A stretch of DNA of 44,717 nt, taken from Chloroflexota bacterium (GTDB lineage: Bacteria; Chloroflexota; Chloroflexia; Chloroflexales; Roseiflexaceae). The stretch covers positions 1 to 44,717 of the forward strand of contig JAGWYG010000021.1 of the NCBI GenBank assembly GCA_018969485.1, in the 5' to 3' direction. The notes below the pieces were generated by a model. That model was given only the letters and a program-made list of their open reading frames with translations. It had not been told where the DNA came from and did no database searches. Shown here one piece after another: positions 3,327-16,307 of this stretch. Within the stretch, counting starts at the first letter, position 1; the number at the start of each line of letters is the position of its first letter. The position numbers and the translations under genes are program-made.

Positions 3327-3605
3327 ATGACCACAGCACAGCGCGACGAGCGCGTTCTGGTGACGGTGCTGACCGGCTTTCTCGGTGCCGGCAAGACAAC
3401 CCTGTTGAATCGCATCCTGACCGAGCAGCACGGCTGGCGGATCGCGGTCATCGAGAACGAATTCGGCGAGATCGGCATCGACAACGATCTGGTGATCAAT
3501 GCCGAAGAAGAGATCTTCTGCACTATGCCGCGTTGCGCCAGCGTGACTGCCCGACCAGCGCACACTTGGCCGCAACGCTGCTGCTGCCCGTCGGCCCCAC
3601 GATGA
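3327..3605 (+). pseudogene. Truncated CobW/COG0523-family GTPase (metallochaperone)
   Basis: The first 65 residues are typical CobW/Yci[20 protein letters not shown] (P-loop), [19 protein letters not shown] and INAEEEIF. In intact proteins a CxCC metal motif follows directly; here the frame leaves the family at about nt 3519 and ends after 92 residues. About three quarters of the GTPase, including the metal site and C-terminal domain, is missing, so it cannot work as a chaperone. ATG 3327 has GGTGAGGG 8 nt upstream and sits behind a good promoter and a Fur-family operator. The breakpoint joins it to a piece of an unrelated gene in another frame, so a deletion is more likely than a simple point frameshift. 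Confidence 0.8.
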
Positions 3606-3772
3606 CCGCCGAGGAGATCGCGCATACCGTGCTGGGCGTCGTCAAAGCCGCCGACTCTCTCGGCGTCCGCTGGTGGACGGACCCGCCGCGTGCGGCCGAA
3701 TATGCGGAATGGATGACCACGCTGTATGGGCCGGGGCACGACGCGTTCCGGCCGGCGTTCGCGACCGGCTGA
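3519..3772 (+). pseudogene. C-terminal remnant resembling a DegT/DnrJ/EryC1 aminotransferase
   Basis: In the second forward frame, from the cobW breakpoint on, the translation reads [20 protein letters not shown] and then [20 protein letters not shown]. This resembles the last segment of DegT/DnrJ-type PLP aminotransferases (pattern: Pro-Val-Ala-Glu, Leu-x-Leu-Pro, Met-Thr-x-Glu-Glu). The tail to the stop at 3770 (WWTDPPRAAEYAEWM...) was not recognised. No start codon or upstream part of such a gene exists here, so it is the other half of a deletion junction. Call made from a short motif only. Confidence 0.45.
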
Positions 3773-3950
3773 TGGCGGTGCGGTGCCGGATGGCACTCCG
3801 CCACGCCTGCCCGAGGCGTTGGCGGGCGTTGTGCGAATCCGCACGACATCACGCCGCGATTCCCTGCAGGATGGAGCAATGCTGACGGCTGCTGCATCAA
3901 TCGCTCCTTGGTGCGGCCCGACCAGATGAACCGACGGATTGTCCGTGATC
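3773..3950. other. Short intergenic gap with no visible gene
   Basis: About 180 nt between the aminotransferase remnant and the ribosome binding site AGGAGG (3953-3958) of the next gene. No promoter or hairpin stood out. Confidence 0.4.
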
Positions 3951-3966
3951 ACAGGAGGTGAGTACC

Positions 3967-4507
3967 GTGATGTTTGAGGATCGAACCATGCCGTGCCGTG
4001 ATTGTGGCGGAGAATTTGTATTCACCGCCGGCGAACAGGAGTTCTACGCCCAGAAGGGGTTTGGCAACGACCCGACGCGCTGTCCATTACGACGGCGCCA
4101 GCGCAAGGGCCTGGGCGGCACCGCGGGCCTGGCGGGGCAGGCCTGCCCGCACGATGTCACCGGCCGCGGTCGCATGCCGGCCGATGATGCCATGCCGCCG
4201 CGCGCGCATCGACGATGCGTCGGCCGCACGACCACGCGGTGAGCGTTGGGATCGTGATCGTGCGCCGGTGCCGCGCCGCGCCGGCGCGGGGGTGCTGCCG
4301 GATGGGCCAGTCGCCGCGCAGATCGTCAGGATCGATGGCGCGCGGCGGTTTCTCTTCGCTCGCCTGGTCGACGGTGGCGCCGATGTGTACGTGCATGCGT
4401 CGCTGTTCGAGGGTCTTGTGCCTGCGCTGCGCGAAGGCGACACGGTGACGCTGGTGGTGGGATCCGGCGAGCGCGGCCCGCGCGCCGTGCGCCTGCAGCG
4501 TGGCTGA
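3967..4507 (+). pseudogene. Frameshifted zinc-ribbon plus cold-shock-domain protein
   Basis: Frame 1 begins MFEDRTMPCRDCGGEFVFTA, then GEQEFYAQKGFGNDPTRCP. This is the small zinc-ribbon domain (zf-trcl type) with its CxxC knuckle; the second knuckle, normally RCPxCR, reads RCPLRR, so one Cys is lost. Frame 1 stops at 4242. Frame 2 carries, up to a stop at 4507, AAQIVRIDGARRFLFARL, GGADVYVHASLF and PALREGDTVTLVV, which follows a cold-shock/OB fold (RNP2-like VYVHAS). The parsimonious reading is one gene with both domains, broken by a frameshift between about 4090 and 4260. AGGAGG at 3953 supports GTG 3967 or ATG 3970. Two separate genes cannot be excluded. Intact relatives would be small nucleic-acid-binding proteins. 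Confidence 0.6.
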
Positions 4508-4869
4508 GATCGCCCGCCGATGGAGGGACATCGCGCGCGCCCCACGCCCGCCGCGTGATCAGTGTGATGCGCGGCGGCTGGGCGCGGCCGCCGTTGGTGC
4601 CGGTGCGGGGCGGCGCTGGTTGCAGGGAACTGCCTCATCCCCTGTGATCCGGAGGCGGGCGGCGCGCGCCGGCATGCCCGGCGACCCCGCACGCCCATCC
4701 TGGCGCATCCCTCTGTGGGGGGCATCCCGCCGGCGCATGCGCGGCACTCCCCCGCCATCGCCATCACACCACGACGGGCGCGCGCCGTCGCGCGAGGCGA
4801 TCCTTGCCATATAATGAGCGCACGGAGCGCGACGATCGCATATCGCGACGGGATGAGGCGAGGAGCACT
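4508..4869. other. Intergenic region with hairpin and -10 element
   Basis: Contains an 8-bp perfect hairpin (ccgccgcg at 4548-4555, cgcggcgg at 4570-4577) that could end the upstream transcript, and a consensus TATAAT at 4810-4815, 55 nt before the next start, with no good -35. No gene seen. Confidence 0.5.
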
Positions 4870-5349
4870 ATGGCTGGAGAGGTACGCGCGGGAGCTCTGT
4901 TCTTCGTGGTGGCGCTGGTCGTCACCATTCCATTCTCACTGATTCCGCTGGTCGGCATGCTGTGCTGCGGCCCAATCGGCGCACTGGCCTATGGAATAGG
5001 AGCGGGCGCCCTCGGGGCGCGCTGGCGTGGCGCCACAGCGTCGGTGGGCCAAGGCGCGCTGTCGGGCGGCCTGGCCGGTGTCGGCGCCCTGATCGGCGCG
5101 ACACTGGCTGCGGTGATTTCGGTGGTGATCGCGCAGAGCGATCCCGAGATGATACGACAGATGCTGCGCGAGGCGCTGGCCCAGTCCGACGGCGTCGAGA
5201 TCTCACCCGACGACCTGGCCGCGCTGCTGCTGCCGATCGGCGCGCTGGTCGGCTTCTGCATCGGCATGATCAACCTGGTGGCCTCGCTGCTGAGCGGCAT
5301 GCTCGGCGCATGGATCACGATCTCGCGCCGGCCTGCAGCCACGCTGTGA
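4870..5349 (+). CDS. Small polytopic membrane protein, unknown function
   Basis: A 159-residue protein with four hydrophobic segments: about 8-30 (ALFFVVALVVTIPFSLIPLV), 33-52 (Gly/Ala-rich), 70-93 (GVGALIGATLAAVISVVIAQ) and 120-153 (LLLPIGALVGFCIGMINLVA). A short acidic, water-soluble stretch (SDPEMIRQMLREALAQSDGV) lies between helices 3 and 4. Gly-rich helices recall small integral proteins annotated only as domains of unknown function. ATG 4870 is preceded by AGGAG at 4 nt, and TATAAT at 4810 may be its -10. Convergent with the aminotransferase downstream. I do not recognise the family. Confidence 0.7.
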   Translation: MAGEVRAGALFFVVALVVTIPFSLIPLVGMLCCGPIGALAYGIGAGALGARWRGATASVGQGALSGGLAGVGALIGATLAAVISVVIAQSDPEMIRQMLREALAQSDGVEISPDDLAALLLPIGALVGFCIGMINLVASLLSGMLGAWITISRRPAATL

Positions 5350-5448
5350 CGCGGGCGCCCCGCGGCGTCGCGCAGGGAGGCGGTCGCGTCGGGCCGCAGC
5401 GCGAATCGCTGGCCTGAGCGCGCCAGGCGCCCCATCGGCCTGGGCGGC

Positions 5449-5478
5449 CGCGAGCATCGGCGACGGACGATGCTCGCG
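5449..5478. terminator. Hairpin between convergent genes
   Basis: An 11-bp perfect stem (cgcgagcatcg with cgatgctcgcg) and an 8-nt loop, 100 nt after the membrane-protein stop. No T-tract follows, so termination is plausible but not certain. Confidence 0.5.
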
Positions 5479-5512
5479 CGCCGGCCCGCGGCCACGCGGT
5501 GATGCACATGCC

Positions 5513-5532
5513 CCCCGCGCCACCACGCGGGG
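5513..5532. terminator. GC-rich hairpin at the 3' end of the aminotransferase gene
   Basis: Perfect 7-bp stem ccccgcg/cgcgggg with a 6-nt loop, 8 nt beyond the minus-strand aminotransferase stop. Serves either or both convergent genes. Confidence 0.45.
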
Positions 5533-5540
5533 CGTGCGCG

Positions 5541-6917
5541 TCAGGCCACGGCGCGGATCGATGCCTCGAGCACGTTGAGCGCCTCATCGGCCTGGGTGGC
5601 CGTGAGCACCAGCGGCGGACACAGCCGGATGGTCGACTCGCCGCAGGTGAGCAGCAGGACGCCGCGGCGGAACGCCTGGAGCATCACGGCTTCGGCCAGA
5701 TCGTGGTCGGGGGCGCGGCTGCCGCGATCCGAGACGAACTCGATGCCGATCATCAGCCCGCGGCCGCGGACATCGCCGATCACCGGGTAGCGCTGGTGCA
5801 GTGTCGCCAGGCCGCGCATCAGGTGGGCGCCGACGGCGCGCGCGTTGTCGGCCAGTCCATCGCGCACCAGATCGAGCACGACGTTGGCAGCAGCGCACGA
5901 GAGCGCATTCCCGCTATAGGTGCTGCCATGCGCCCCCGGCGTCCAGCGCTCGGTCAGCGCCCGGCGTGCGATGATCGCCCCGATCGGCAGCCCGCCGCCG
6001 AGCCCCTTGGCCGATACCACGATGTCGGGCGTGCAGTGCTGCCCGGCACAATGGCCGCAGCGCCCCACCGGCTGATCCTGCTCGTGGGCCCACATCGTGC
6101 CGGTACGCCCGATGCCGCTCTGCACCTCGTCGAACACCAGCACGATACCGTGCCGGTCGCAGATCTGGCGCAATCCGCACAAGAACCCGGCAGACGGCAC
6201 GACGTAGCCACCCTCACCCTGGATCGGCTCGACCACGATCGCGGCGATGTCTTCCGGCGGCGCGACGGTGCGCAGCAGCGTCTGTTCGATGTACTCGAGA
6301 CACGCCGCGGTCGTGCGCTCGGTGGGCACGCCGAACGGCGGGCGGTACGGGTTGGCGTAGAACGCATGGAACACGCCGGGGAGCATCGGCCCGTAGTGGC
6401 GCCGCTGCACCGCCTTCGAGGCGGTCAGCGACATCGAGCCATAGGAGCGCCCATGAAATGCGCCATAGAAGGCGACCACCCCCGTGCGCCGCGTGGCGAG
6501 GCGCGCCAGTTTGATCGCCGCCTCGACCGCCTCGGTGCCACTGTTCGAGAGAAACACGTGCCACTGCTGGTCGGCCGGCATCGTCGCGACCAGCCGCTCG
6601 CCGAGGCGAATCATCGGCTCATTGTAGAAATCGGTCGCGGCCATGTGGCAGAACCGCGCGGCCTGCTCCTGGATGGCGCTGACGACGCGCGGGTGCGAAT
6701 GACCCGCCGCGACGACGGCGATGCCGGCGTTCATGTCGAGATACCGCTGGCCATCGGCGTCCCAGACGTCACAGCCCAGGCCGCGTTCCATGACCAGCGG
6801 GTAGACGCGCCCCATGCAGGGGGCGAACACGGCCTCGTCGCGCGCGACGAGCGCGCTGGCGCGCGGCCCGGGAACGTTCAGGACGGCAGGATCGTGCAGG
6901 GCGTCCGTTGGCATCAT
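5541..6917 (-). CDS. Class-III PLP aminotransferase (4-aminobutyrate/acetylornithine type)
   Basis: A 458-residue fold-type I, PLP-dependent omega-aminotransferase. Motifs: LDMNAGIAVVAAGHSHP, FLSNSGTEAVEAAIKLAR (phosphate cup), FYGAFHGRSYGSMSLTASK, VVEPIQGEGGY, LVFDEVQSGIGRTG (PLP-ring Asp) and SAKGLGGGLPIGA with the Schiff-base Lys near residue 302. Overall it is closest in style to GabT and related omega-transaminases. Odd point: between residues 280 and 296, just before the catalytic lysine, there is an insertion reading GRCGHCAGQHC, a cluster of three Cys and two His not usual here. Two tandem ATGs (6917, 6914) follow a GGAGAA site. Amino donor cannot be predicted. Confidence 0.9.
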   Translation of the reverse strand: MMPTDALHDPAVLNVPGPRASALVARDEAVFAPCMGRVYPLVMERGLGCDVWDADGQRYLDMNAGIAVVAAGHSHPRVVSAIQEQAARFCHMAATDFYNEPMIRLGERLVATMPADQQWHVFLSNSGTEAVEAAIKLARLATRRTGVVAFYGAFHGRSYGSMSLTASKAVQRRHYGPMLPGVFHAFYANPYRPPFGVPTERTTAACLEYIEQTLLRTVAPPEDIAAIVVEPIQGEGGYVVPSAGFLCGLRQICDRHGIVLVFDEVQSGIGRTGTMWAHEQDQPVGRCGHCAGQHCTPDIVVSAKGLGGGLPIGAIIARRALTERWTPGAHGSTYSGNALSCAAANVVLDLVRDGLADNARAVGAHLMRGLATLHQRYPVIGDVRGRGLMIGIEFVSDRGSRAPDHDLAEAVMLQAFRRGVLLLTCGESTIRLCPPLVLTATQADEALNVLEASIRAVA

Positions 6918-7347: not shown

Positions 7348-9987
7348 ATGTTCTCCGCCGACATGCCGCTGTTCGCCGCCGAGTACCACTACTTCCGCGC
7401 CGCACGCGTCGACTGGGAGCCGATGCTGGCGCGCATGCGGCAGCTTGGCGCCAACACGATCGCGACCTACGTGCCCTGGGCCTGGCACGAGGTGGAGCCG
7501 GGGGTCTTCGATGTCGCTGGGACCAGCGAGCCGTGCCGTGATCTGATCGGCTTCGTGGAGTGCTGCGCGGCGCTCGGGTTTCGCGTGATCCTCAAGCCCG
7601 GGCCATTCTGTGATGCCGAATTGCTCGGCGGCGGCATCCCGCCACGCCTGCTGGCGCAGCACCCCGAGATCGCAGCGCTGCGCCCGGATGGCGTGCCGTG
7701 GCGCCACTCGGACAGCGGCGTCGCGCGGCCATGTCTGCTGCATCCGACGTACCTCGCCGCGGCGCGCGCCTGGCTGGCGGCGTTCTCGCAGGCGATGCTG
7801 CCGTATCAGGCGCCACAGGGGCCGATCATCGCGCTCCAGGCCGAAAACGAGACGCCCGGCGACGGCATGCTGCCTGCTGATATCGGGCTCGATCCGCGCT
7901 TTCGCCTCGATTACAATCCGTATGTCGTCGATGTGCTCTGGCCGGCCTGGTGTGCCGAACACGATCTCGATGTGCCGGCGCCGCGTACCTGGCACGCGCC
8001 GGCCGATCTCGCCGACGTGCAGGCGTATGCGCTGCTCAATGCCTTCACCGATCAGCTGTATGCGCAGGGCGTGGCGCAGGTGGCCCAGGGGCTCCGCGAC
8101 GCCGGCTGGACGGTGCCGATCTTCCATGATCTGCTGGCGATGCCGTGGGAGGCGGCCGGCTTGCTGGCCGATATCGGCGCGATGGCGCGGGCGACGGGCT
8201 GGCTTGGACATAATGTCTACCCCGAAGACGTGCGTGAGCCCTTCGTCGGGCGGGAGTGGTATCGCTACTCATTCGAGGAGTACGTGCATTTCGCCATCTG
8301 GCGCCCACGCCTGATGGCGCGGCTCAGCCCGGCGTTCCCCAGCTTCATCCCCGAGATCAGTGCCGCGCAGGATTTCTTCTTCGCCGCGCCGTTCGTCGGC
8401 GGCAGCCGCGGGTGCTGTGTGTACATGGCAGCGCAGAGCAGTCCCGACGAGCCGCGCGCCGGCGCATTCGCACGCTGGGCGATGGAGGCACCGATCCGGC
8501 CGGACGCGAGCGTGCGGCCGCGGTTCTGGAATGCGCGCGGCCTGTTCCTGCTGCTGGGAATGGCGGGTGGCGATTATGCCGCTGCGGCCGAATGCCCGAC
8601 GCTGGCGCTGGGATACAGCCATGTGCCTGAACACACGTCGATCTGGCAGTACCAGTTTGATTATCCGCAGGCCGGGCCGGCCTGGCAGCCAGACGATGCG
8701 CGGCTGTGCGGTGTGCTCGCCGGCACCGATCACGGCGTGCGCAGCCAGCGACTGGCGCAGCAGCTAGTGCGCGCCGGCATCGACTTCGCGGTCGTGGACC
8801 TCGATGCGGCCGATCCGGCGGAGCTGGCGCGGTATGCGCTGGTGCTGGTGCCTGCGACGCCGGTGCTGGCACGGGCGACGCAGCAGCGCCTGGCCGAAGC
8901 GCCCAATGTCATGCTGGCCGGCGCCGAATCGACGGCCTACGATGAACGGCTACGGCCGTGTGCGCTGCTGCAGGCAGCCGAGGCGGCCGGGCGGGTGGCG
9001 AGAATGCCGGATGCCGCCCCCACGGCGATCGTGGCAGCGCTGGTGCGGCGTGGTGGGGTGCCGGCGCTGTTCACCAGCGGCGTCGAGGGGGTGGACGTGT
9101 CGTGCCGGATCGGCACGGCCTGGCGCTACGTGTTCGTCGCCAACCGCATGGCGGAGGGCTTCGGCGGCACGCTGCGCGCGGCATCCGGCGGCGAGGCCAT
9201 CGCCCTGACGCTCGGCCCGCGGCGGGTCGCGGCGCTGGTGCTCGATGGCGACCGGCTGCGTGGCGCCGCGTGTGGTGGCGACGCCGGCGAAGGGGGCTGG
9301 TCGGTGGCATTCGGCGCGACGGCGCTGGCATTCAGCGGTGGTGCCGGCGTGGTGGCGTGTGACGGCGCCTGGCTGGTGTGCAGCGCGCCCGGCTCCGGCC
9401 AGTTTCGCATCACCGGCATCGCTGCGCCAGGCGCGCTGCTGGCATATCGGCTGCTGCTGCATGGCCGGGTGCTGGCGTGGCCGTCACACCGCGATGGCGC
9501 GACGGTCGTCGTCGGCTATACCGCCGATGACGAGAGCGGCACCACCGATGCGGTGTGGCTGGCGCCACCCGATGCGCCGCTCACCGCATACCTGCGCGCG
9601 TACCTGGTCACGTTGCTGCTGGCGCGTGCGGCGGCGCTGCAGCACGCGCTCACGACGCTGGCGCACGCACCGGCCGCCGGAGCGCTGCTGCCCGACGAGG
9701 CGCATGGTGCGCTGCAGCAGGCGCTCGCTGCCATGCGCGACGGCCTGGCGCTGCTGCAGGACGCCGCGACCGATGCGCTGACGCTGTCGGCGTACGCCGC
9801 CACCTGGCAGTCCGCCGACGACGCCGAGGACGTGGCGTTGGGGCGCATCGCCGCGCTGCTCACCTGGGTGCGGCGCAGCGTCGCGGCGGCACAACTGGCG
9901 GACGCGCCGGCGGCGACGCTCGAGCACTGGCTGGTGGCGGTGCTCGAGCGCATCGCCCGCGGCAGCCTGCGTGGCGATCGCGAGTGA
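7348..9987 (+). CDS. GH35-like beta-galactosidase
   Basis: An 879-residue glycoside hydrolase with an N-terminal TIM barrel of the GH35/GH42 clan. Signatures: ANTIATYVPWAWHEVEPGVF, then DLIGFVECCAALGFRVILKP and GPFCDAELLGGGIPPRLL. ALQAENE contains the acid/base Glu168, and FIPEISA carries the likely nucleophile Glu336. The remaining 500 residues are beta-rich and, towards the end, helical (about 750-870). No signal peptide is seen, so it probably acts in the cytoplasm on imported oligosaccharides. The open frame extends further left, but ATG 7348 has GGGAGG at 6 nt and begins directly on the barrel (MFSADMPLFAAEYHYF). First gene of a four-gene operon with gaps of 28, 23 and 13 nt. The usual second Glu context (ENEYG) is ENETPG, so substrate may differ from lactose. 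Confidence 0.85.
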   Translation: MFSADMPLFAAEYHYFRAARVDWEPMLARMRQLGANTIATYVPWAWHEVEPGVFDVAGTSEPCRDLIGFVECCAALGFRVILKPGPFCDAELLGGGIPPRLLAQHPEIAALRPDGVPWRHSDSGVARPCLLHPTYLAAARAWLAAFSQAMLPYQAPQGPIIALQAENETPGDGMLPADIGLDPRFRLDYNPYVVDVLWPAWCAEHDLDVPAPRTWHAPADLADVQAYALLNAFTDQLYAQGVAQVAQGLRDAGWTVPIFHDLLAMPWEAAGLLADIGAMARATGWLGHNVYPEDVREPFVGREWYRYSFEEYVHFAIWRPRLMARLSPAFPSFIPEISAAQDFFFAAPFVGGSRGCCVYMAAQSSPDEPRAGAFARWAMEAPIRPDASVRPRFWNARGLFLLLGMAGGDYAAAAECPTLALGYSHVPEHTSIWQYQFDYPQAGPAWQPDDARLCGVLAGTDHGVRSQRLAQQLVRAGIDFAVVDLDAADPAELARYALVLVPATPVLARATQQRLAEAPNVMLAGAESTAYDERLRPCALLQAAEAAGRVARMPDAAPTAIVAALVRRGGVPALFTSGVEGVDVSCRIGTAWRYVFVANRMAEGFGGTLRAASGGEAIALTLGPRRVAALVLDGDRLRGAACGGDAGEGGWSVAFGATALAFSGGAGVVACDGAWLVCSAPGSGQFRITGIAAPGALLAYRLLLHGRVLAWPSHRDGATVVVGYTADDESGTTDAVWLAPPDAPLTAYLRAYLVTLLLARAAALQHALTTLAHAPAAGALLPDEAHGALQQALAAMRDGLALLQDAATDALTLSAYAATWQSADDAEDVALGRIAALLTWVRRSVAAAQLADAPAATLEHWLVAVLERIARGSLRGDRE

Positions 9988-10015
9988 TCACCGCAGTTGT
10001 TGCGAGGAGGAGGCG

Positions 10016-10903
10016 ATGACGACGTACACCACGCCGGCCGACGCGCTGCGCGCCGCGCGCGCCGCCGCGACGACCGAGGCCGAGCTGCACGTGCTGGCGC
10101 AATCGCCGCACAGCTTCGTCCGGGCGGCGTTGCTCGAGCGCCCGGCGCTGCCCGCCGGCGTGTTCGCCCGCCTGATCCCGACCAGCCTGGCCAGCGCCGG
10201 CGAGCTCGAGGTCGCGCAGCGGCTGGTCGCGCATCCACAGGCCACCGCGGCACTGCGCCTGCAGGTCGCCGGCATGGTCGCCGCGCCGAATGATGCCGCC
10301 GAGCTGATGGTGGCACTCAGCTGCAGCGATGTTGCGCTCGACGCGCTGCAGCCGCTGCTCGAGCGCGCCAACAGCGCCCTGCGCCGCCGCATCGAGCAGG
10401 CGGCGTCGCGCGGCGACGTCCGCGACGTGCTGCGGCAGATGCGCTCCCGCAACCGCGCGGCCGCGCCACCACCTGCGGCGCCACCGGCCGCCGAGCCAGC
10501 CGCATCGGCCGATGCGCCCTGGCAGCGCCTGCTCGATGCGCAGCGCGAGCAGGTGCGCGCCGCGCTCGCCGGCAGCGTGCTGCGCCATGAGGACGCGCAG
10601 TTCGACCGCGACTACTCGCGCGACAGTGCCTACGCCGAGACGACCCGCACGCTGGTCCTCGGCGCCGATGGCTGGTTCCAGTATGATGAGCAGCGCATGC
10701 TGTCGGTGTCGGCCGGCGACTATCTGTTCAGCCCGTCGATCCGGCGGACCACCGAGCGCGGCATCTGGTCGATCGTCTTCGAGGAGCGCCAGCGGCTGCT
10801 GGCCTTGCGGCGCGCCGATGGCAGCGTGGTCTGGCGCGCGGTGATCGGCGACCTGTCGACGGGTGTGTGCGTCCTCGACGGCGTGCCGTGGCAGCGGGAT
10901 TGA
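10016..10903 (+). CDS. Helical-repeat protein with beta-rich C-terminus, unknown function
   Basis: A 295-residue soluble protein. Residues 1-145 form alpha-helical repeats of the HEAT/variant-leucine-rich type, for example HSFVRAALLERPALPAGVFA and QATAALRLQVAGMVAAPND. An Ala/Pro linker follows at about 150-170 (AAAPPPAAPPAAEPAA), then a C-terminal domain rich in aromatic and beta-type residues (LVLGADGWFQYDEQRMLSVS, RRTTERGIWSIVFEERQRLL). No catalytic motif was identified. ATG 10016 is preceded by GAGGAGGAGG; the frame is open upstream but lacks another site. It is the second gene of the GH35 operon. Function unknown; a binding or scaffold role fits the repeats. Confidence 0.75.
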   Translation: MTTYTTPADALRAARAAATTEAELHVLAQSPHSFVRAALLERPALPAGVFARLIPTSLASAGELEVAQRLVAHPQATAALRLQVAGMVAAPNDAAELMVALSCSDVALDALQPLLERANSALRRRIEQAASRGDVRDVLRQMRSRNRAAAPPPAAPPAAEPAASADAPWQRLLDAQREQVRAALAGSVLRHEDAQFDRDYSRDSAYAETTRTLVLGADGWFQYDEQRMLSVSAGDYLFSPSIRRTTERGIWSIVFEERQRLLALRRADGSVVWRAVIGDLSTGVCVLDGVPWQRD

Positions 10904-10926: not shown

Positions 10927-11889
10927 ATGATCTGCATGGCGGTGCCCGAGATCGAGACGATCGCGCTGGCTGAGGTGCGCGATACCCGCGACGTGGGGGT
11001 GGTGACGAGCGGGCCGGCATGGGCCGCGGCGCATCGCGCGGGCCTGCACCTCGCGCCAGCGTGGACCGACGCGCCGGTCGATGCCAGCGAGCCGGCATTC
11101 GCCGCGCTGGCCGCGCGCTGCCCCGCCGGTGTGGCAGTCATCTATGGCGTGGGTGGCGGGCTCGCCGCCGACGCCGCCAAGTACGTGGCACGTCACCACA
11201 GCCTGCCGCTGATCCTCATCCCGACGGCGCTCTCGGTCGATGCGCATCTCACCTGGGCCAGCGGCGTGCGCCGCGATGGCTGCATCACCTACCTGCCGAC
11301 CGGCGCGGCGCAGCGCGTGCTGGTCGATACGGCGCTGATCGCCGCGGCACCGCCGGGAGTGCGGGCGGCCGGCATCTGTGATCTGCTCTCGATCGCCACC
11401 GGCACGTGGGACTGGCACCATGCCGAGGCGCGTGGCCAGAACCCGCCGGAGCAGGCCTACCTGCCCTGGGCTGCCGCGCTGGCCGGCGAGATCCTGGCAG
11501 CCAGCCTGATCGTCGCCCCCGGCGCTGGTCGTGGCGAGCCGGCCGGGCTGCTCGATCTGCTGCGGCTGCTGGCGCTCGAGGTGCAGCTGTGCAACCTGCT
11601 CGGCCACAGCCGCCCCGAGGAGGGCTCCGAGCACTACCTGGCGTACGCGCTCGAGGCGCACCCCGCGATCGGCGCCGGCCATGCCCATGGCGATCTCGTC
11701 GGCCCGGCGATCATCCGCGCCGCCACCTGGCAGGGCCAGGCGGTTGCGCCGCTGCACGACGCGCTCGTCGCTGCCGGCGTGCCGCTCGACCGCGTGCCGG
11801 CAGCGGTGCTCGACGACGTCGAGCAGACCCTGCCGCAGTATGTGCGCCGCCACCGTCTGGCGTTCGGCATCGCACACGAGCTGTCATGA
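10927..11889 (+). CDS. Glycerol-1-phosphate dehydrogenase-like (EgsA/AraM family)
   Basis: A 320-residue member of the iron-containing/dehydroquinate-synthase-like dehydrogenases. It has the NAD-binding VIYGVGGGLAADAAKYVA, substrate loop LIPTALSVDAHLTW, and three metal-ligand regions: Asp in GICDLLSIATGTWDWHHAE, His in EEGSEHYLAYALE and His in GAGHAHGDLVGPA. Family members reduce dihydroxyacetone phosphate to sn-glycerol-1-phosphate (archaeal lipids; AraM in Bacillus). Substrate specificity here is inferred only. ATG 10927 follows GGAGG at a short 4-nt spacing; ATG 10942 is too far away. Third gene of the operon, 23 nt after the repeat protein and 13 nt before the macro-domain gene. Confidence 0.8.
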   Translation: MICMAVPEIETIALAEVRDTRDVGVVTSGPAWAAAHRAGLHLAPAWTDAPVDASEPAFAALAARCPAGVAVIYGVGGGLAADAAKYVARHHSLPLILIPTALSVDAHLTWASGVRRDGCITYLPTGAAQRVLVDTALIAAAPPGVRAAGICDLLSIATGTWDWHHAEARGQNPPEQAYLPWAAALAGEILAASLIVAPGAGRGEPAGLLDLLRLLALEVQLCNLLGHSRPEEGSEHYLAYALEAHPAIGAGHAHGDLVGPAIIRAATWQGQAVAPLHDALVAAGVPLDRVPAAVLDDVEQTLPQYVRRHRLAFGIAHELS

Positions 11890-11902
11890 TGAGGAGGCTA
11901 CC

Positions 11903-13222
11903 GTGCAGTCACGAACGTATGTCGTCGGCCGATCGCGCATTCAGCTGATCTTCGGTGATATCACTCATGCCACGACCGAGGTGGTCGTCAGCTCCGACGA
12001 TGTGCTGCTCTCGATGGGCGGTGGAGTGTCTGCGGCGATCCGCCATGCTGGCGGCGCAAGCATCGCGACGGATGCCGCCAAGCTGACGCCTGCGCGAGTC
12101 GGCGATGTGATCGTCTCGACGGCCGGGAATCTGCGGGCAAAGTATGTGCTGCATGCCATCACGCTGGGCGTCACAGACGACAGGCTCCCGATGGACCTGA
12201 TCGTGCGTCAGACGACACATCGCGTCATGCAGCTGCTCCCGCTGCTCGGCTGCACTTCGGTCGCATTCCCGGCGATCGGCGCCGGGGTTGCGCGCATCCC
12301 CTACGAGGTCGTGGCATCGCAGATGGCTGCCGTGCTGGTCGATAACCTGATCGACGACCCTGCGGCCTACCGCGTCGAGCTATGGCTCAGCGGCAGGGCC
12401 GGGCACATCGAGCCGCATGCGTTCTTCGCATTCTTCGAGGCGTTTGCGACGCGCCTCATGGGGGTCGCGACCGCGGCCGCACCGGGGATGGTGATCCTGC
12501 AGCCGCCGGGTGTGTCGCCGACGCCGATGGACGCGCACCAGGTGGCTGAATCCGAACGGCACCACCGCGTCTACGAGATGTTGCGGCACCTCGACGCCCG
12601 GCGCGATCAGCTCGAAGCCCGGCTGCTCGCGGCGCTCACCGCGACCGATCATCATGCCGATCAGCTGGTCTCGCAGCTGCGCAGCCACCTCGCGGATGTC
12701 GGGCAGCTCCGCAGCACCTACGCCGCCGAACTCGCCACGCTGGCCAAGGACGACGCTGCATCAGCCGACTCGGTCTTCGTCAGCTCGACCTATGTCGATC
12801 TCAGCGATCACCGCAAGCAGGTGCGCAGCGTCATCGACCGCTTGCAGATGCGGTTTGTCGGCATGGAAGAGTTCATCGCGACGGAGCATGCCCCGGTCAA
12901 TCTGATCCGACAGAAGGTGCAGGAGAGCCAGATTTATTGCGGTATTCTCGGCATGCGCTATGGCTCCGTCGATCCGGGCACAGGTCTCTCGATGACCGAA
13001 CTGGAATATCGGCAGGCGATCGCAAGCGGTAAACGCATCTGCATGTTTGTCATGAGCGATGGCGCTCCGATCACGCCCAGCATGGTGGAGCGCGATCCGG
13101 ACGCCTATCGTAGCCTGATCGACTTCAAGCAGCGGGTGTTGCAGTCACATGTGTGTGCCCTGTTCACCGATCCGCAGGATCTGGCGACCAGGGTCGAAGC
13201 GGCCCTGAGGCCGAGCGCCTGA
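11903..13222 (+). CDS. Macro domain-coiled coil-DUF4062 fusion protein
   Basis: A 439-residue three-part protein. Residues 5-175 look like a macro domain (ADP-ribose binding): IQLIFGDITHATTEVVVSSD, LSMGGGVSAAIRHAGG, VAFPAIGAGVARIPYE. Residues about 210-285 are charged and helical (coiled coil). From residue 290 on SVFVSSTYVDLSDHRKQVRS, RFVGMEEF, IYCGILGMRYGSVDPGTGLS, MTELEYRQAIASGKRICMFV follow DUF4062, a domain otherwise seen at the N-terminus of NACHT/STAND proteins and in TEP1. GTG 11903 follows GAGGAGG at 5 nt. Codon use is slightly less GC-biased than in its operon partners, which may mean separate ancestry. A role in ADP-ribose/NAD-linked signalling or defence is inference from the domains; the macro Asn-Asn usually seen after GDIT is SerSerAsp here. 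Confidence 0.82.
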   Translation: MQSRTYVVGRSRIQLIFGDITHATTEVVVSSDDVLLSMGGGVSAAIRHAGGASIATDAAKLTPARVGDVIVSTAGNLRAKYVLHAITLGVTDDRLPMDLIVRQTTHRVMQLLPLLGCTSVAFPAIGAGVARIPYEVVASQMAAVLVDNLIDDPAAYRVELWLSGRAGHIEPHAFFAFFEAFATRLMGVATAAAPGMVILQPPGVSPTPMDAHQVAESERHHRVYEMLRHLDARRDQLEARLLAALTATDHHADQLVSQLRSHLADVGQLRSTYAAELATLAKDDAASADSVFVSSTYVDLSDHRKQVRSVIDRLQMRFVGMEEFIATEHAPVNLIRQKVQESQIYCGILGMRYGSVDPGTGLSMTELEYRQAIASGKRICMFVMSDGAPITPSMVERDPDAYRSLIDFKQRVLQSHVCALFTDPQDLATRVEAALRPSA

Positions 13223-14505: not shown

Positions 14506-15105
14506 CTATGTTCTGCCCCAGCGCTGGTAGTCTTCCGGGGTGTCGATGTCGATGGCGGCGCGCGCATCGTCGATCGGCACGATCGCGACCCGCGCCGGAT
14601 CGGCCGCGATGATCCCGCGGGCGCCCTGATCGCCGTGCACGGCGCACAGCTCGGGCACCAGCGCACGGTCGAACAGTACCGGCGTGCCGCGCTGGCCGGC
14701 GTAGCTCGGCGCGACGATCGCACCGGCGCCAGCCTGCCAGGCATCGATCAGCCGCGTGATCACCGCCGGATCGACGAACGGCTGATCGCCCAGGAGCAAC
14801 AGCAGGGCATCATACGGCGCAGGCGCCGCCAGCGCACCGACGCGCAGCGACGTGCTCTGACCCATCGCGTAGTCCGGGTTGAAGACACAGCGCACCGCCA
14901 GTCCGTCCAGCGCCGCCGCGACAGCCGGCGCCGCCGCGCCGGTGACCACGATCAGCTCGGCGATCGGCGCGGCCAGCGCGCGCTCGACAGCATGGCGCAC
15001 CAGCGGCCGGCCATCGATGGCGAGCAGCTGTTTGGGCTGCCCCATGCGCCGCGCCGCACCGGCCGCCAGCATCACCCCCACGATGCGCGGCGCCGCAGCG
15101 CTCAC
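14506..15105 (-). CDS. mocA: Molybdenum cofactor cytidylyltransferase
   Basis: A 199-residue nucleotidyltransferase that converts Mo-molybdopterin to its CMP form for xanthine-dehydrogenase-type enzymes. The nucleotide-binding signature GVMLAAGAARRMGQPKQLLA is at residues 10-29, LLLGDQPFVDP supplies the metal-binding Asp, and APSYAGQRGTPVLFDRAL is the usual GxPv segment. The GTG start at 15105 overlaps the stop of the upstream xdhC by 4 nt, implying translational coupling. Length fits MocA. A guanylyl-transferring MobA is less likely because of the xdhC partners. Confidence 0.9.
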   Translation of the reverse strand: MSAAAPRIVGVMLAAGAARRMGQPKQLLAIDGRPLVRHAVERALAAPIAELIVVTGAAAPAVAAALDGLAVRCVFNPDYAMGQSTSLRVGALAAPAPYDALLLLLGDQPFVDPAVITRLIDAWQAGAGAIVAPSYAGQRGTPVLFDRALVPELCAVHGDQGARGIIAADPARVAIVPIDDARAAIDIDTPEDYQRWGRT

Positions 15106-15833
15106 GATGGCGCGGCGCCCGTGCGGCCGTTGCGGACGGCGATGATCTCGGCGATGATGCTGACCGCGATCTCCTCGGGCGACTGGCCGCCGATCCGCAG
15201 CCCGATCGGCGCGTGGAGCCGTGCCAGATGCGCCTCGCTCACGCCGGCGGCGCGCAGGCGCTCGAGGCGCCGGGCGTGGGTGCGCGGGCTGCCGAGCGCG
15301 CCGACGTAGCGCGCTGCGCTCGGCAGGGCGACCAGCAGCGCCGGGTCGTCGAGCTTCGGATCGTGCGTCAGCACCACCACGTGGCTGTTCGCCGTCAGCC
15401 GGCCCGCCAGCGCTTCGTCTGGCCAGGCATGGACCAGTTCATCGGCGTGCGCGAAGCGCTCGGGCGTCGCGAAGGCGCCGCGCGCGTCGATCACCACCGT
15501 GCGGAATTGCAGGGTGCGTGCGAACGCCACCAGCGGAATGGCGATGTGTACCGCACCGACGACCAGCAGCGTCGCCGGTGCCGGATAGGTCTCGATGAAG
15601 ACCTCCAGGCCCCCCTCGTAGCGCCGTACCTCGTTGGCGCCGCGCTGCAGCAGCGCCAGCGCGTCGGCGACGATCTGCGCCGTCGCCGCGCCCGCCGCGA
15701 GCGAGCCGGTCGTCACGCCCGCCGCGTCGATCAACAGCTTGCCGCCGATCGGCGTCGCGCCAGCCAGCACGGTCGCGACCGCGACCGGCTGCTCGGCGTC
15801 GAGTGCGCGCCGCAGCGCGTCGTGGATCACCAT
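15102..15833 (-). CDS. XdhC/CoxI-family maturation factor, full length
   Basis: A 243-residue protein that in this family delivers the (sulfurated) molybdenum cofactor to xanthine dehydrogenase or CO dehydrogenase. The N-terminal XdhC_CoxI part includes TVLAGATPIGGKLLID and GGLEVFIETYPAP; the C-terminal Rossmann part has TLLVVGAVHIAIPLVAFART and VVLTHDPKLDDPALL, RYVGALGSPRTHARRL. Final segment PIGLRIGGQSPEEIAVSIIA is diagnostic. ATG 15833 has GAGG at 6 nt. It sits between the short XdhC-type gene and mocA. No molybdenum-hydroxylase subunits are in the window. Confidence 0.88.
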   Translation of the reverse strand: MVIHDALRRALDAEQPVAVATVLAGATPIGGKLLIDAAGVTTGSLAAGAATAQIVADALALLQRGANEVRRYEGGLEVFIETYPAPATLLVVGAVHIAIPLVAFARTLQFRTVVIDARGAFATPERFAHADELVHAWPDEALAGRLTANSHVVVLTHDPKLDDPALLVALPSAARYVGALGSPRTHARRLERLRAAGVSEAHLARLHAPIGLRIGGQSPEEIAVSIIAEIIAVRNGRTGAAPS

Positions 15834-15854: not shown

Positions 15855-16166
15855 TCAGCGCAGCGGTTCGACGAACACATCGATGGTGCCACCACACGCC
15901 AGCCCGACATCCCAGGCCTCGTCGTCGGCGACGCCGAAATGCAGCAGCCGCGACTCGCCCGTCGCGATCGCCTGCTGGCATGCCTCGAATACGGCACCCT
16001 CGATGCAGCCGCCGCTCACCGAGCCCGCCATCGCGCCGCTCGACGACACCGCCATCTTGGCGCCTACCCCGCGCGGCGCCGAGCCGAGCGTGCGCACCAC
16101 CGTGGCGACGGCGATCGCGTCGCCGCGGGCGCGCCAGCGTTCGATTGCCGGAAGGACGTCATTCAT
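15855..16166 (-). CDS. Short XdhC/CoxI N-domain protein
   Basis: A 103-residue stand-alone XdhC_CoxI domain: VATVVRTLGSAPRGVGAKMA, GSVSGGCIEGAVFEACQQAI and LACGGTIDVFVEPL, the latter with the conserved Cys-Gly-Gly. Full XdhC proteins carry this plus a Rossmann domain, so this is the small CoxF/XdhC half-type. The frame is open to 16265, but ATG 16166 has GAGGG at 6 nt and starts the conserved region. First gene of the minus-strand maturation operon; a weak extended -10 (TGCTACCAT at 16214-16206) lies 40 nt upstream. Confidence 0.85.
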   Translation of the reverse strand: MNDVLPAIERWRARGDAIAVATVVRTLGSAPRGVGAKMAVSSSGAMAGSVSGGCIEGAVFEACQQAIATGESRLLHFGVADDEAWDVGLACGGTIDVFVEPLR

Positions 16167-16307
16167 GGTGCCCTCGCTGTCCTCGTGTGCAGCTCCCCCT
16201 ACATCATGGTAGCACAGATCCGCTGACAGCGGGCACAACGGCGACGAGCCGGCATGTGATCGCACACGCCGGCTCCGATTGCCTCGTTTCGACCCCGGGA
16301 TGGCCCG

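Follow-up and report, generated by a model that had tools for sequence, protein, structure and literature searches.

The window analysed here is a stretch of 44,717 nucleotides from contig JAGWYG010000021.1 of a Chloroflexota bacterium (Roseiflexaceae), and the gene under study lies at positions 11903 to 13222 on its forward strand. It encodes a single protein of 439 residues in which an N-terminal macro domain is joined through a helical hairpin to a C-terminal DUF4062 domain. The open reading frame runs from a GTG codon at 11903 to a TGA ending at 13222, and this start is backed by the relatives at loci L045 and L047, which begin at the equal residue. A longer reading frame starting at 11531 was rejected, as it overlaps the upstream gene, which is iron-alcohol dehydrogenase (ADH)-like, and relatives begin at the equivalent of 11903. 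The features of the gene are listed below with the evidence for each.

11891..11897, + strand: ribosome-binding site GAGGAGG, 5 bases ahead of the GTG (sequence)
11903..13222, + strand: macro - helical hairpin - DUF4062 fusion gene, 439 residues (reading frame, translation, Pfam, full-length relatives, ratio of non-synonymous to synonymous substitution rates, dN/dS)
11903..12460, + strand: macro domain, residues 1-186 (Pfam; model; structure match to the O. iheyensis macrodomain)
11987..12031, + strand: distal-ribose loop VSSDDVLLSMGGGVS, residues 29-43, with D33 and S43 at the MacroD catalytic Asn/Asp positions (motif columns against ordinary macro domains)
12266..12292, + strand: phosphate-loop motif FPAIGAGVA, residues 122-130 (conservation in the alignment of 34 relatives)
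12467..12502, + strand: beta-hairpin joining the macro domain to the helices, residues 189-200 (DSSP on the model)
12533..12736, + strand: helical hairpin, residues 211-278, proposed oligomerisation or transmission element (DSSP on the model; conserved LDARR..LE motif in the alignment of the fusion family)
12770..13207, + strand: DUF4062, TIR-like N-glycosidase domain, residues 290-435 (Pfam; KpSwz alignment; fold matches to DNPH1, TIR and SARM1)
13004..13006, + strand: predicted catalytic glutamate E368 in the motif TELEY (aligns with the KpSwz E97 position; 15/15 DUF4062 rows)

Both domains that the initial annotation had placed in one protein were recovered far above the Pfam cut-offs and were modelled with their expected folds. 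The Macro family (PF01661) matched residues 36-140 with an E value of 2.5e-18 (66.6 bits against a cut-off of 22), and DUF4062 matched residues 291-372 with an E value of 2.1e-22 (79.5 bits against 24.7). AlphaFold2, run on 34 aligned rows, modelled the whole protein with a mean confidence (pLDDT) of 89.8 and a predicted template modelling score (pTM) of 0.87, laid out as the macro domain (1-186), a beta-hairpin (189-200), two long helices (211-246 and 252-278) and a TIR-like domain (290-435). The segment between the domains, first described as a coiled coil, is helical but predicted as a hairpin and not as a single long coiled coil. A full-length copy of the fusion with 83% identity occurs in a sister species of the same genus. 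The gene is under purifying selection in every part, with a dN/dS against this copy of 0.21 for the whole gene and of 0.23, 0.29 and 0.14 for the macro domain, the helices and DUF4062, respectively. Pfam scores, model and dN/dS rule out a chance or mis-called reading frame, and because the whole-gene dN/dS is this low and other phyla have the fusion at full length too, the joining of the domains is not a product of chance either. The fusion at 11903-13222 is thus confirmed as real.

By profile score and by fold, the protein belongs to the macro domain superfamily. In the structure search, its macro half aligned with the Oceanobacillus iheyensis macrodomain over 180 residues (Z 24.4, root-mean-square deviation 2.1 Å), so that the macro fold on which the initial annotation depended is present. 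The pocket had been called non-canonical for its Ser-Ser-Asp, which is borne out by the distal-ribose loop, reading V29-S-S-D-D33-V-L-L-S-M-G-G-G-V-S43. Nearly all ordinary macro domains of the same phylum carry NAAN at this place, and the MacroD types among them also have the catalytic Asp, while SSDD was found only in this gene and its sister copy among the 32 macro loci compared. Macro fold and phosphate loop are shared with MacroD-type hydrolases (O. iheyensis MacroD, YmdB) and TTHA0132-like macro domains; however, their NAAN ... GGGGVD is SSDD ... GGGVS in the window protein. A MacroD-type ADP-ribosyl hydrolase was rejected on these grounds, as D33 and S43 replace the catalytic Asn and Asp.

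The altered residues are fixed: SSDD and GGGVS are invariant throughout the fusion family. In an alignment of 34 relatives, many near-invariant positions fall in the distal-ribose loop, where most positions are at least 90% conserved, and in the phosphate loop, where P123 is invariant and G126, G128 and A130 reach at least 90%. Since the pocket loops hold the most conserved positions across these relatives, the pocket appears to be in use, and its altered yet fixed state over several phyla points to a use other than MacroD hydrolysis. With two acidic residues by the distal ribose, the pocket could prefer a ligand that bears a positive charge or an amine there, such as NAD+ or a base-exchanged dinucleotide.

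DUF4062 has been described in a 2026 preprint as a family of TIR-like NAD+ glycohydrolases (NADases), which makes its treatment as a domain of unknown function out of date (PMC13174449). The bacterial member KpSwz (Swarozyc) shields E. coli from phages, cannot do without its residue E97, has the phage portal as its trigger and produces ADP-ribose and nicotinamide; DUF4062 of human TEP1 is also active and yields no further ADP-ribose derivatives (PMC13174449). A search of the PDB with the whole model returned matches to the macro half only, and the C-terminal half was therefore folded alone (pLDDT 88.2). Its structure matched DNPH1 (Z 13.1) and TIR domains (Z about 12), with the TIR domain of SARM1 on top by Foldseek. 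KpSwz (10wc) was not among the structural matches listed, which is not counted against kinship, as the window domain clearly aligns with the KpSwz chain in sequence (E 2.5e-10). In this alignment the KpSwz chain has an alanine opposite E368, which would fit the E97A mutant used for its structure (PMC13174449). Unlike E366 close by, which varies, E368 is present in all 15 DUF4062 rows, so that the DUF4062 part does retain a conserved pocket residue of the kind the initial annotation relied on.

By profile, fold and conserved catalytic glutamate, the domain belongs to the DUF4062 / TIR-like NADase family, and on these grounds it is likely to act as an NADase. DUF4062 had also been presented as the front of NACHT/STAND proteins, but the architecture here is not bound to them. 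A STAND/NACHT immune ATPase was rejected, as the chain has no match to an NTPase family and ends after DUF4062.

Relatives at 45 loci were collected by scanning 84,980 species genomes. Records titled Chloroflexi, Myxococcales, Acidobacteriota, Elusimicrobia and Riflebacteria hold full-length SSDD-macro - DUF4062 proteins, as do two metagenome-assembled genome (MAG) records titled Bifidobacterium; in Nitrospira and Acidimicrobiaceae, the deposited copies are interrupted by frame breaks. In Bacteroidota, Mycobacterium and Nocardiopsis, it is a canonical TIR_2 domain, not DUF4062, that comes after the SSDD macro domain. The two actinobacterial TIR domains (L062 and L068) match the ThsB models of PADLOC with E values of 1.7e-37 and 5.2e-44, and a glutamate (E302) is invariant in the 17 TIR fusions. 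The macro domains form a distinct clade, named SSDD-macro here, by the motif VSSDDxxLSMGGGVS and by their grouping in the macro-domain tree, where the SSDD rows stand apart from ordinary macro domains with a support of 100/98. The DUF4062 fusions form one clade (98/98) nested inside the TIR-fused rows, which on the rooting used would mean a single replacement of TIR by DUF4062. Branches among the members without TIR are long and their placement is unsure.

Of all the evidence that the two halves act jointly, this exchange is the strongest, because two NADase-type families of one fold class sit behind one macro clade. It also lends independent evolutionary support to DUF4062 working as a TIR domain, which among the papers found otherwise rests on a single 2026 preprint (PMC13174449).

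Several relatives depart from the common form. The two MAG records titled Bifidobacterium (L048 and L049) are labelled Bifidobacterium breve, which is doubtful, and carry the fusion beside Tubulin_2. The frame-broken copies at L051:8001-9310, where the break lies at a G run, and L053:1920-3243 perhaps reflect assembly errors or decay. A triple fusion of HSP70, SSDD macro and DUF4062 was found in a Myxococcales MAG (L046:1979-4444), followed by a second HSP70-type gene at 4479-6554. In Sorangium cellulosum (L086:7032-8489 and L087:7032-8489), a related macro domain with VSADD is, by eye, fused to a Ser/Thr kinase. SSDD-macro proteins without TIR lie directly downstream of a caspase gene in Flammeovirga (L079:6680-9011) and of a trypsin-like gene in Streptomyces (L081:7040-9035), and both have a helical C-terminus. 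The alignment-based scan of viral contigs found no relative and tblastn of phage records gave three partial macro hits only, which makes a phage-borne gene less likely without excluding it. A plasmid-borne fusion was rejected, as no plasmid record spans both halves.

Taken together, we read the protein as a self-contained NADase switch of the abortive-infection type in one chain, run by its own macro domain reading an ADP-ribose-type nucleotide, with a probability of roughly 55%. The C-terminal DUF4062 domain would be a TIR-like NAD+ glycohydrolase that stays inactive until several copies come together. The macro domain, lacking the MacroD hydrolase residues, would read ADP-ribose, a base-exchanged adenine dinucleotide or an infection-induced derivative, and ligand binding would be relayed through the helical hairpin into assembly of the protein. 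The assembled DUF4062 domains would then cleave NAD+ and the cell would stop. Alternatively, a low initial activity would make more ADP-ribose and so drive a feed-forward loop, which is possible in one chain given that macro domains typically bind what the enzyme produces. In the cell, such a switch would most likely serve defence by abortive infection. A domain search of the gene's own genome, which is 95.6% complete, found neither TIR_2 nor another DUF4062, and this absence fits a self-contained unit.

The reading builds directly on both folds, the conservation of the catalytic glutamate and of the altered pocket, purifying selection and the DUF4062/TIR exchange behind one macro clade. NAD+ hydrolysis and phage defence by DUF4062 are carried over from KpSwz, and ligand binding with oligomerisation from the macro domain of ThsA. 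The "NAD/ADP-ribose sensor-effector" of the initial annotation stands as the best-supported reading on the catalytic glutamate, the conserved non-hydrolase pocket and the exchange, with the ligand, activation as the direction of control and phage defence by this gene being what we infer.

Several points weigh against this reading. The gene lies outside a recognisable defence island, and PADLOC offers no model for it. The adenine-contacting Asp of the GDIT motif is not invariant, with D, N or S among relatives, and since the contact positions are unlike those of MacroD, the ligand may be something other than ADP-ribose. Whether the macro domain activates or restrains the enzyme would not be readable from sequence, by which the switch and a restraining macro domain would look alike.

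The main rival has the macro domain as a brake in cis, which restrains the NADase or removes its ADP-ribosyl product or signal as an antitoxin or eraser, as DarG does in trans. Macro domains form the antitoxin half of DarTG-type pairs, and the related macro domain of L060 has weak DarG similarity in PADLOC (E 1.3e-7). Macro domains tied to TIR systems have also been predicted to regulate them by targeting cyclic ADP-ribose (cADPR) (PMC9503650). However, the positions of the MacroD Asn/Asp pair are D33 and S43 without variation in the fusion family, and an eraser fused to the enzyme would hit the product of each activation and make a poor lethal effector, so that we regard a brake as unlikely. 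Somewhat less likely is that the main product of DUF4062 is a diffusible ADP-ribose derivative whose receptor is the macro domain, both in this protein and in the relatives linked to caspase or trypsin, within a network and not by bulk depletion of NAD+. The TIR-less SSDD-macro proteins directly behind caspase and trypsin genes and the several loci with more than one TIR gene would suit such signalling, but the products known from TEP1 and KpSwz are no such derivatives (PMC13174449), and no partner effector was seen adjoining the window gene.

It is improbable that the protein has a housekeeping role in the salvage of NAD+ or nucleotides, with its gene transcribed together with the sugar and dehydrogenase genes upstream. 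While only 13 bases separate the gene from the iron-ADH-like gene on the same strand, and nucleotide N-hydrolases such as DNPH1 have the same fold, the fusion gene is rare and patchy, and the genes around its relatives in other phyla are altogether different. Its GC content of 0.643 is the lowest among the 22 genes of the window, and in family relatives the iron-ADH-like gene is present without the fusion gene after it; together these suggest, without proving it, that the fusion gene was acquired within this genus. A degenerate scaffold that has lost ligand binding or catalysis in one or both domains is very improbable. The non-canonical pocket and the inactivity of purified human NWD1, NWD2 and NPHP3 as NADases (PMC13174449) would agree with it, but the pocket and the catalytic glutamate are among the most conserved positions, and selection acts on all parts.

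Among known systems, the protein resembles Swarozyc in its TIR-like DUF4062 domain with a conserved catalytic glutamate and in the helical element beside it. However, KpSwz has DUF4062 at the N-terminus and a C-terminal helix-turn-helix (HTH)/winged auxiliary domain that binds the phage portal (PMC13174449; PDB 10wc), whereas here DUF4062 is C-terminal and a macro domain takes the place of the sensor at the N-terminus. Swarozyc membership was rejected, as DUF4062 ends at residue 435 of 439 and no HTH/winged domain follows. Type II Thoeris consists of the TIR protein ThsB and the transmembrane-macro (TM-macro) protein ThsA, whose macro domains assemble into oligomers once ADP-ribose or imidazole adenine dinucleotide is bound, and self-aggregate on ADP-ribose (PMC11204291). 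A TIR-family NADase is likewise coupled to a nucleotide-reading macro domain there, but in two genes instead of one chain and with a macro domain of a different Pfam family (PF20016), and the TIR-like domain here would be the effector and not a signal maker alone. Type II Thoeris membership was rejected for this single gene, with no PF20016 or ThsB_TIR match in Pfam at E values up to 10, no Thoeris match in PADLOC and no TIR_2 in the genome. By analogy, the protein most likely works like a Thoeris pair in one chain, or like a Swarozyc in which a nucleotide sensor replaces the portal sensor.

The SSDD-macro - TIR_2 fusions of Bacteroidota and Actinomycetota (L060-L078) share macro clade, motif, domain order and a C-terminal TIR-family domain with conserved glutamate, and differ in having a canonical TIR_2 domain (ThsB-like in L062 and L068) where the window protein has DUF4062. 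Human TEP1, the vault NADase, also carries an NADase of the DUF4062 family in a multidomain protein, but with NACHT and WD40 in place of a macro domain. The contexts of the relatives, with extracytoplasmic function (ECF) sigma genes, an HSP70 fusion, Tubulin_2 and caspase or trypsin genes, recall the conflict systems of multicellular prokaryotes (PMC7159879, PMC8195603), although none of the ECF-sigma, caspase, trypsin, HSP70 or tubulin genes stands beside the window gene; DUF4062 is unmentioned in PMC8195603. No single-chain macro-DUF4062 or macro-TIR protein was found described in the open-access literature searched, although the supplementary auxiliary-domain figure of PMC13174449 may list macro. 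Regulation of TIR systems by macro domains had, however, already been predicted (PMC9503650).

TIR-family NADases hold a central place in the immunity of bacteria, plants and animals, where the question is what switches each of them on. Here a possible receptor for NAD+-derived nucleotides and an enzyme that makes or destroys such nucleotides are united in a chain of 439 residues, and product-sensing feed-forward control of an NADase becomes testable with one purified protein. A wider and more tentative proposal, which we hold as possible, is that SSDD-macro domains are a distinct and portable class of immune nucleotide receptor in many phyla, acting in cis with TIR or DUF4062 NADases and in trans with caspase- or trypsin-like effectors, and reading an ADP-ribose-type signal through acidic residues round the distal ribose. 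If so, the cis module would be a single-chain, self-amplifying destroyer of NAD+.

The neighbourhoods of the relatives vary. The fusion lies near BrxC/PglY (BREX-like) and HEPN_Swt1 at L050, and near a GmrSD gene matching the PADLOC candidate HEC-05 at L053. In Bacteroidota, L064 and L065 adjoin other TIR genes, and L074 adjoins a DUF4062-TPR gene just below the Pfam cut-off. At four Chloroflexota loci, ECF-type sigma genes directly precede and overlap the fusion (L055:3251-3883, L057:4428-5063, L058:6860-7495 and L050:4481-5035), and these sigma-preceded fusions carry about 170 extra N-terminal residues with a CxxC motif resembling an anti-sigma zinc site. At L049, where Tubulin_2 lies in the neighbourhood, the gene after the fusion (3492-5240) looks SLOG-like by eye (IGVIGHRDL, LSSLAQGAD) with no match in Pfam or PADLOC, and it was not used as evidence.

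In the window itself, the fusion gene follows a GH35-type hydrolase gene, an uncharacterised gene and the iron-ADH-like gene, and faces molybdenum-cofactor genes. A conserved gene in the same apparent operon (9971-10903) is 75% identical in the sister species and has no Pfam match. On the other side, XdhC/CoxI is split across two adjacent genes (15855-16265 and 15102-15833), which lie by MocA- and MoeA-like genes.
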